Source of the DNA: Ardenticatenales bacterium
GTDB lineage: Bacteria > Chloroflexota > Anaerolineae > Epilineales > Epilineaceae
Direction of reading: 5' to 3'
Length of the DNA stretch: 64,000 nt
NCBI GenBank assembly: GCA_020853525.1
Contig: JADYYS010000039.1
Span: 1-64,000, forward strand
Shown here: one piece after another, positions 16,876 to 19,136 of the stretch
Position numbering within the stretch: the stretch's first letter is position 1
Layout: each line of letters starts with the position of its first letter
Notes under the pieces: generated by a model
What the model was told of the DNA's origin: nothing
The model's input: only the letters and a program-made list of their open reading frames with translations
Databases searched by the model: none
Made by a program: the position numbers and the translations under genes

Positions 16876-17002
16876 GGAAAGACAAAGGACCAGCGCCCCA
16901 AGGCGTTCGCCCTGGACACTGGTCCTTGCGCAGCACCCACACACAACGCGTCGCCACTCTCGTGGCAGACCCCCACACAGCCGCTGGCGTGTTCGTGCTA
17001 CG
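16876..17002 (-). ncRNA. Candidate small RNA with own promoter and Rho-independent terminator
   Basis: Read on the minus strand. A strong promoter (17009-17037) predicts a 5' end near 17002. The transcript begins with GCGTAGCAC, which can pair with GTGCTGCGC about 60 bases later (one G-U pair). Inside lies an apical hairpin GCCAC-GAGA-GTGGC (GNRA loop), extended by a GTC/GAC pair. After the closing stem comes a terminator: AAGGACCAG (16927-16919) pairs perfectly with CTGGTCCTT (16893-16885), followed by TGTCTTT. Length about 125 nt. No open frame is evident. The closing stem, internal asymmetric bubble and apical hairpin resemble 6S RNA architecture, but I cannot assign it to that family by sequence. 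Confidence 0.6.
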
Positions 17003-17008
17003 CGGCAG

Positions 17009-17037
17009 AGTATACGGGGCGGGGCGCGAACTGTCAT
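17009..17037 (-). promoter_or_regulatory. Promoter of the candidate small RNA
   Basis: On the minus strand: ATGACA (17037-17032), 17-bp spacer, TATACT (17014-17009). This is five of six matches at -35 and at -10 to the sigma70 consensus. It faces away from the SRP RNA, and no protein gene starts downstream of it. Confidence 0.65.
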
Positions 17038-17149
17038 TACGGTTACATTAAGCTTAAGAGTGCCTTTGGCTCGGCCGTCGTTTTCCGTCGATGCCGCACC
17101 CCGCCCGCCGTCCTCACCCGCCACGCCGTCGCCCGTTTCGACGGCGCTG

Positions 17150-17177: not shown

Positions 17178-17299
17178 TCCGGCAGGCCTGCTCAGGGTCC
17201 TGCGCGGCGGAGGCGCTCGAACCGCGTCAGGTCCGGAAGGAAGCAGCGCTAAGGGATGTCCTCCGGGTGCCGCGGGTTCGCCTTGGGCGGGCCTGCCGG
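17178..17299 (+). ncRNA. ffs: Signal recognition particle RNA, small bacterial type (4.5S-like)
   Basis: The invariant Ffh-binding segment GTCAGGTCCGGAAGGAAGC is at 17226-17244, ending in the AAGCAGC of the symmetric loop. The ends are complementary: CCGGCAGGCCTGC (17178-17190) pairs with GCGGGCCTGCCGG (17287-17299) with one G-U. This gives a single hairpin of about 120 nt without an Alu domain. It lies upstream of the YabE-like gene. The exact 5' and 3' ends are estimated from the stem. Confidence 0.93.
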
Positions 17300-17411: not shown

Positions 17412-19136
17412 GTGGAGGGGGGCGTGGGGGAATCGTCGAATCGACTCGGTCGCCGCGCGGACCGCACTTCCGGTGCGGCCCGGCGATTCCTGGCGTTGCT
17501 GCGCCCGTGGCTCGCCCCGCTCGGCGCGGCCGCCGTCGCGGTGCTGGTGCCCTACCTCCACCGCCAGGCCGCGCGCACCGTCTCGCTCGACGTCGACGGC
17601 CGGTCGGGCCGCGTCGTGACGACGGCCGCCACCACGCGATTGGCGTTGGCGGAGCTGGGCATCCGCGTGGCGAGGGACGACGTCGTCTCGCCGAAGGTCG
17701 ATGCCGCCTTGCCGGAGGGCAGCCGTGTGGTCGTCCGGCGCGCGCCGCGCGTCACCGTCCTCGCGGACGGCAGGGCCACCGAAGTGACAGCCGAAGGCCG
17801 TACGGTCGCCGCGGTGCTGCAGGCGGCCGGCGTCGTCCTCGACCCGGCGGACAGCGTCACCGTGAACGGACAGCCGTGGTCGTTGGCCGCGCGCCTCCCC
17901 GCACCGGCCGGCAGCCGCGCGGCAGCCCGGGAGGCGGCGGAACGCGTCCCGGTCGAGGAGATGTTCCGCGGCGTGTTCAGCCCCCGTGTCGCATACGCCG
18001 ATGAAACGGGCCACCACACCGGCCGCGGTGCATCGGCGGACCGTTCCGCCTCGGCGCTCGCCGCGCACACCACCGGCGACGACCTGCGCGCCGCCGCACG
18101 CCGCCTGCTCGCGCCGGTCCTGTCGGCCCTTCGTCCGGGCGAGCGCCCACCGGGGATCGTCGGACGCAACGTCGTGCGCGTCGTGCGGTCGCGCACCGTC
18201 TGGGTTGTCGACGACGGGGTGCGCACGCCGCTGGCGGCGTCGGGCGAGACCGTCGGCCAGGCGCTCGAGCGTGCCGGCGTGCGCCATCTGCCGGGCGACC
18301 GTGTGCAGCCGCCACTCGATACGCCGCTGGCCTACGCCCCCGAGATCACGATCCACCGGGGCGTGCCGTTCGCCCTCGATGCGGACGGCCTGACACGCGA
18401 GCTGCGCTCCGGCGCGCCGACGATCGGCGCCGCGCTGGCGGCGGCGGGCGTCGGCCTGGCCGGCCGCGACATCGTCGACCCTCCGGCCGAGACCGTGGTG
18501 TCGCCGGGGCTCGCGATCGAGGTGACGCGGGTGCGCGACGTCCTCGAGTGGCGGGAGGTCGAGATCCCGTATCAGACCGAGGCGATTCCCGATCCGAACC
18601 GCCCGCTGGACGAGGTGGCGGTGCTGCAGGCGGGCGTTCCCGGTCTGGCCACCCAACGCCTCGAGGTGACCTACCACGGCGGGCGCGTCGTGGACCGAAC
18701 GGTGCTGGACGAGACGATCGTGCGCGAGCCGGTCGTCGAGCGGGTGGCGTACGGCACGCACATCACCTGGGGCACCGTGATGACCGAGGCCGGGCCGATG
18801 CGCTACTGGCGCAAGCTCCGCACGTACGCCACCAGCTACAGCGCCTCCCGTGCCGGCACGCCGCGTTCGGCGCCGTGGTACGGGCGCACCCGGATCGGCG
18901 AGGTCATGCGCAAGGGCATCGTGGCGGTCGACCCGCGCGTCATCCCGCTCAGAACGAACCTGTACGTCGAGGGCTACGGACTCGGGCTGGCCGGCGACAC
19001 GGGCGGCGGGATCAAGCGCCTGCACATCGACCTCGGCTATGACGACGACAACTACATCGGCTGGCACCACTACGTGGACGTCTACCTCCTCGAGCCGGCC
19101 CCGCCGCCCGATCGCATGCCGTGGGTGCTGCCCTGA
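17412..19136 (+). CDS. YabE-like protein: DUF348 repeats, G5 domain and C-terminal 3D domain
   Basis: 574 residues from a GTG at 17412. A hydrophobic anchor (WLAPLGAAAVAVLVPYL) lies at about 35-52. Repeats of the DUF348 type (VTTAATTRLALAELGIRV; GRTVAAVLQAAGVVLDPAD; GETVGQALERAGVRHL; APTIGAALAAAGVGL) follow. A G5-type segment (REVEIPYQTEAIPDPN) comes next, then a 3D domain at about 495-560 with VDPRVIPLRTNLYVEGYG and the aspartates of GDTGGGIKRLHIDLG. Family members are cell-wall muralytic or stationary-phase survival-type proteins; lytic activity is inferred from the 3D domain only. The yabE-rsmA order is also found in Bacillus. It overlaps rsmA by 16 bases. Confidence 0.85.
   Translation: MEGGVGESSNRLGRRADRTSGAARRFLALLRPWLAPLGAAAVAVLVPYLHRQAARTVSLDVDGRSGRVVTTAATTRLALAELGIRVARDDVVSPKVDAALPEGSRVVVRRAPRVTVLADGRATEVTAEGRTVAAVLQAAGVVLDPADSVTVNGQPWSLAARLPAPAGSRAAAREAAERVPVEEMFRGVFSPRVAYADETGHHTGRGASADRSASALAAHTTGDDLRAAARRLLAPVLSALRPGERPPGIVGRNVVRVVRSRTVWVVDDGVRTPLAASGETVGQALERAGVRHLPGDRVQPPLDTPLAYAPEITIHRGVPFALDADGLTRELRSGAPTIGAALAAAGVGLAGRDIVDPPAETVVSPGLAIEVTRVRDVLEWREVEIPYQTEAIPDPNRPLDEVAVLQAGVPGLATQRLEVTYHGGRVVDRTVLDETIVREPVVERVAYGTHITWGTVMTEAGPMRYWRKLRTYATSYSASRAGTPRSAPWYGRTRIGEVMRKGIVAVDPRVIPLRTNLYVEGYGLGLAGDTGGGIKRLHIDLGYDDDNYIGWHHYVDVYLLEPAPPPDRMPWVLP

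Follow-up and report, generated by a model that had tools for sequence, protein, structure and literature searches.

In enterobacteria, the small RNAs OmrA/OmrB and MicF are activated by OmpR. The Anaerolineae locus described here resembles these systems in its proposed logic, by which an envelope response regulator would activate a small RNA (sRNA) and also act on surface genes; it has no sequence relation to them, and both its regulator and its targets are predicted. Sites of OmpR-family response regulators are repeats with an 11-bp period, a spacing that is also seen upstream of the sRNA. Two such sites are the MtrA consensus of actinobacteria, GTAACCNNNNNGTAACC, i.e. GTAACC-N5-GTAACC (PMC12323332), and the WalR box, TGTWAH-N5-TGTWAH (PMC4168254). 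The literature on small RNAs of Anaerolineae was searched, and nothing relevant was found. With RNA, promoter element and candidate co-regulated genes all named, the locus would make envelope regulation in uncultured Anaerolineae accessible to testing.

The window, i.e. the whole stretch of DNA that was analysed, consists of the first 64,000 nt of contig JADYYS010000039.1, from an Ardenticatenales bacterium. The features of the locus are the following:

17191..17290, plus strand: SRP RNA, divergent neighbour lying outside the sRNA, and the sole Rfam family in the window
17035..17058, minus strand: conserved upstream element CTTAAGCTTAATGTAACCGTAATG, kept in the promoters of relatives and weakest in the paralogue
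17032..17037, minus strand: -35-like hexamer ATGACA, not conserved in relatives
17009..17014, minus strand: -10 hexamer TATACT; TATACT, TAGACT and TATAGT in relatives
16878..17003, minus strand: predicted sRNA, its start at about 17003-17002 deduced from the -10 hexamer and the base of P1
16995..17003, minus strand: closing stem P1, 5' strand GCGTAGCAC, covarying with the L006 copy
16968..16991, minus strand: near-invariant core CACGCCAGCGGCTGTGTGGGGGTC, comprising the 5' strands of P2 and the one-sided bulge GCTGTGTGGGG (16971-16981)
16950..16970, minus strand: apical hairpin P3, GTCTGCCACGAGAGTGGCGAC
16928..16936, minus strand: closing stem P1, 3' strand GTGCTGCGC
16876..16927, minus strand: intrinsic terminator, with stem AAGGACCAG/CTGGTCCTT (16885-16927) and tail TTTGTCTTTCC (16876-16886)

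The first-pass annotation had proposed an unannotated small RNA beside the SRP RNA, preceded by a consensus promoter on the minus strand. Hexamers ATGACA (17037-17032) and TATACT (17014-17009), separated by a 17-nt spacer, are present as first described, and constitute the only sigma-70-like site in the 4.5 kb between 15000 and 19500, against 0.2 expected from shuffles. Of the two hexamers, the -10 is conserved in relatives and the -35 is not. All the parts attributed to the RNA of about 125 nt were found, including the closing stem, the GAGA-capped hairpin, the 9-bp terminator stem and the T-rich tail. The predicted minimum folding energy (MFE) of the RNA (17002-16878) is -69.4 kcal/mol, compared with -50.7 +/- 3.6 for shuffled sequences (z -5.24), and none of 200 shuffles was as good. 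No conserved coding frame was found at the locus: indels between relatives are not multiples of three, in agreement with the lack of coding potential originally suggested. The sRNA and SRP RNA genes are divergently oriented, the former being transcribed away from the latter. An Rfam scan of the sRNA identified no fitting family; matches to mir-3075 and Actino-ugpB were discarded as sub-threshold noise.

Copies of the sRNA were sought in other genomes, which are indicated below as G000 (the window's genome), G001 (second genus) and G002 (third genus), all of the same Anaerolineae family. When 100 related genomes were searched at the nucleotide level, one strong match appeared in the second genus, with 88% identity over 83 nt, and two in the third; the strong copies are thus four, in three genera of one family. 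Scanning 85,000 species for the motif gave matches on JAJCYU010000328.1 (Anaerolineae bacterium OFTM155) and QEVT01000017.1 (bacterium UCB3). Three of the four copies, one each in the window, OFTM155 and UCB3, are transcribed divergently from the neighbouring SRP RNA gene, while the fourth (L006) is a paralogue, located 6.6 kb from the SRP-side copy on the UCB3 (G002) contig. The four copies score 77-93 bits (E = 1e-16 to 5e-21) with a covariance model, R1, that was built from these same copies, the independent evidence being the nucleotide match and the synteny. Promoter, core, stems and terminator are kept in the three genera, and the sequence comparison leaves little doubt that the RNA proposed beside the SRP RNA is a real, conserved sRNA, for which there is no existing Rfam family.

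Two neighbouring protein genes were also noted. Directly 3' of the SRP RNA gene, the window contains (17412-19136, plus strand) a gene with DUF348, G5 and 3D domains, in a resuscitation-factor-like layout; similar sequence is also found 3' of SRP in G001, in G002 and, within the order, in at least two further genomes (L031, L033). In G002, a gene for a small cysteine-rich secreted protein (L006, 1838-2416) lies 3' of the paralogous sRNA copy, on the same strand.

When 298 genomes of the class and 400 of the phylum were searched with R1, nothing convincing was obtained. Weak hits of about 26-32 bits (G000 C19 and C51, G168, G479, G535) were judged to be due to chance, as they show coding-like sequence and lack both the promoter element and the invariant core, of which G168 retains only part. 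Exact-motif hits of the 85,000-species scan in Nioella, in the archaeon A07HR67 and in a gammaproteobacterium gave no match with the model, and the scan revealed no convincing copy beyond the three genera; none was found in the viral contigs searched. In the four other genomes of the order the SRP RNA is present and the sRNA is not beside it, one of these loci being near a contig end. Since no convincing copy was detected in the class, in the phylum or at the SRP-side loci of these four genomes, the sRNA appears to be family-specific, as far as searched.

The consensus established from the four copies is a rod, in which the closing stem P1 (7-9 bp) is followed by an internal loop, by P2a (CACG/CGUG), by a second internal loop and by P2b (AGYG/CGYU). 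An 11-nt bulge, present on the 5' side only (GCUGUGUGGGG), then leads to the apical hairpin P3, with a GUY...RAC base, and a separate terminator hairpin follows. The core, CACGCYAGYGGCUGUGUGGGGGUY, is almost invariant, and its bulge-region part reads AGYGGCUGUGUGGGGGUY. The GAGA-capped apical hairpin, GCCAC/GUGGC, is present in the window; its GAGA loop is not conserved in relatives. The terminator stem (9-13 bp) is found in all four copies; the sequences of its arms are wholly replaced from copy to copy and complementarity is kept. In the consensus structure of the four sequences, 94.2% of the cells are paired, compared with 17.6-52.1% when slid. Compensatory changes were looked for in the closing stem, and found there; covariation also involves the base of the P3 apical stem and the terminator. 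Overall, double-sided changes occur in 4 of 23 pairs, a value reached by 7 of 500 shuffles, which, for four sequences aligned to fit the structure, constitutes support, short of proof. In G001, the core is predicted to form an alternative local hairpin (ACAC-GCC-AGC-GGC-U-GUGU) with an energy close to that of P2, and a conformational switch is therefore possible.

The layout of the RNA had initially been likened to that of 6S RNA (RF00013). The sRNA does form a single long rod with a closing stem, an unpaired, asymmetric centre and an apical stem, and this outline is what recommends reading it as 6S RNA, or as an additional 6S in shortened form. However, 6S RNA, which binds RNA polymerase holoenzyme and serves as template for product RNAs, is about 180 nt long and has a large two-sided bubble within a long duplex, whereas the rod of the sRNA measures only about 75-80 nt before the terminator, with a 5' stem of about 20 nt, a bulge on one side and one apical hairpin. 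A cmscan search with the 6S model, recommended in the first-pass annotation, gave no match to the sRNA even at E <= 10, and 6S matches were found at other loci in G000 (C44:89225-89387, L075; 37.1 bits), G001 (C264, L076; 35.7) and G002 (C87, L077; 26.6). With no model match, and the genomes having their own 6S at separate loci, the identification was rejected and is regarded as extremely improbable. The three 6S matches are full-length yet below the Rfam gathering score of 46.4 bits, while 6S is above the curated score in 77 of the 100 related genomes. Within this family 6S RNA is thus divergent, and would be missed by routine annotation; a 6S-like outline by itself misleads where the true 6S of a genome is too divergent for the curated threshold.

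The element upstream of the sRNA is an A/T-rich direct repeat, extending from about -55 to -31 and ending about 20-22 nt 5' of the -10 hexamer. In the window its half-sites follow an 11-bp period, as TTAAGC-N5-GTAACC and TTAATG-N5-GTAATG. The relatives carry CTTAACCTTAATGTCACCTTTATG and GTTAATCTTAACGTTACCTTTAGA, and the paralogue a weaker version, CTCTTAATAAAACCTTTACG; the SRP-side copies differ in the second half-site, which reads GTAACC in the window and GTCACC or GTTACC in the others. Promoters that depend on an activator usually have a conserved -10 hexamer with an upstream element and no conserved -35 hexamer. Such a promoter is suggested here, because the -10 hexamer and the element are kept at a spacing of 20-22 nt, and no -35 hexamer is kept in relatives.

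Like MtrA and WalR boxes, the window element is made of hexamers 11 bp apart; its second half-site is exactly GTAACC, as in MtrA, and a related element precedes LysM genes in these genomes. The differences lie in the first half-site, which is here TTAAGC, TTAACC or TTAATC, and in the regulator, which is putative in this phylum. Control of the sRNA by a regulator of the MtrA/WalR type is reasonably probable. An alternative is offered by G001, where the element starts with CTTAACCT, identical to the half-site of cyanobacterial SphR, which also has an 11-bp period (PMC1906773); the element would then be a Pho box, and the sRNA induced by phosphate starvation. The Pho box was set aside as improbable, since the element is missing at the pstS loci examined in G000, G001 and G002, and marks LysM, fpg and surface genes instead.

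The pattern TTAA-N7-GTNACC was matched 8 times in G000, 10 in G001 and 8 in G002, against 1, 11 and 0 matches, respectively, for a reversed-pattern control, hence without enrichment in G001; the pattern was picked after some of these promoters had been inspected, and the counts are descriptive. All 8 matches in G000 read GTAACC. The related element TTAA-N7-GTAACC is found 5' of LysM genes in three genera, and of fpg and giant surface-protein genes in two each. It is located near the start of orthologues across genera (L117, L126 and L119 for LysM, L102 and L127 for fpg), as well as near the start of giant surface-protein genes (L123, L118, L106). Several of the element-bearing genes have a good promoter of the TTGACA type 5' of the element, which itself overlaps the start region, the position expected of a repressor site. 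Taken across genera, the shared element looks like the mark of an MtrA/WalR-type regulon in Anaerolineae. An OmpR-family regulator of this type would bind the 11-bp direct repeat 5' of the -10 hexamer and activate transcription of the sRNA, and would probably repress the LysM and giant surface-protein genes, through boxes overlapping the start site. The sRNA would in this way belong to an envelope regulon, activated by the same regulator that represses surface genes.

The transcript, ending at the intrinsic terminator, would display on its rod the fixed, G/U-rich one-sided bulge, which may act in trans; pairing with mRNA leaders is the likeliest mode, ahead of a role as protein-binding site. 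Outside the sRNA genes, the core has a single exact complement of 18 nt, in G001. It falls (L080, 1497-1514) about 140 nt 5' of the ATG of a gene for a giant surface protein (open frame of 2,575 residues), within what is predicted to be its leader, and the duplex is predicted at -42 kcal/mol; the family of this protein has members in all three genomes. As a target of the sRNA, this leader is a lead, not a result. The complement is absent from the other leaders examined, and pairing with the leaders of other element-bearing genes is no better than with random windows, which speaks against general base-pairing with these leaders. An additional exact complement in G000 (C11) was also discarded, being on the strand opposite to the coding one and hence absent from the mRNA. 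Action by base-pairing may be considered possible, though doubtful.

The lack of a conserved target among the leaders examined is also compatible with a real sRNA working via protein, in which the bulge and its flanking stems would bind a protein or RNA polymerase, in a 6S/Ms1-like manner or as a decoy. Structure and unpaired sequence are indeed both conserved, beyond the usual need of short antisense seeds; however, the genome has its own 6S and no known RNA family matches, and this mode of action seems rather unlikely. The reading tentatively preferred, with reservations close to those expressed for base-pairing, is that of a family-restricted, trans-acting sRNA of about 125 nt, putatively activated by an MtrA/WalR-type regulator within an envelope regulon and most likely pairing with mRNA leaders. 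Its most specific form, in which an MtrA-like envelope regulator and a family-limited RNA, pairing through its G/U-rich bulge with giant surface-protein leaders, would make up a surface-layer sRNA circuit in Chloroflexota, is speculative and unlikely.

The giant surface proteins themselves form a family (L090-L101) with open frames of about 1,900-5,600 residues, found in several members per genome in all three genera.
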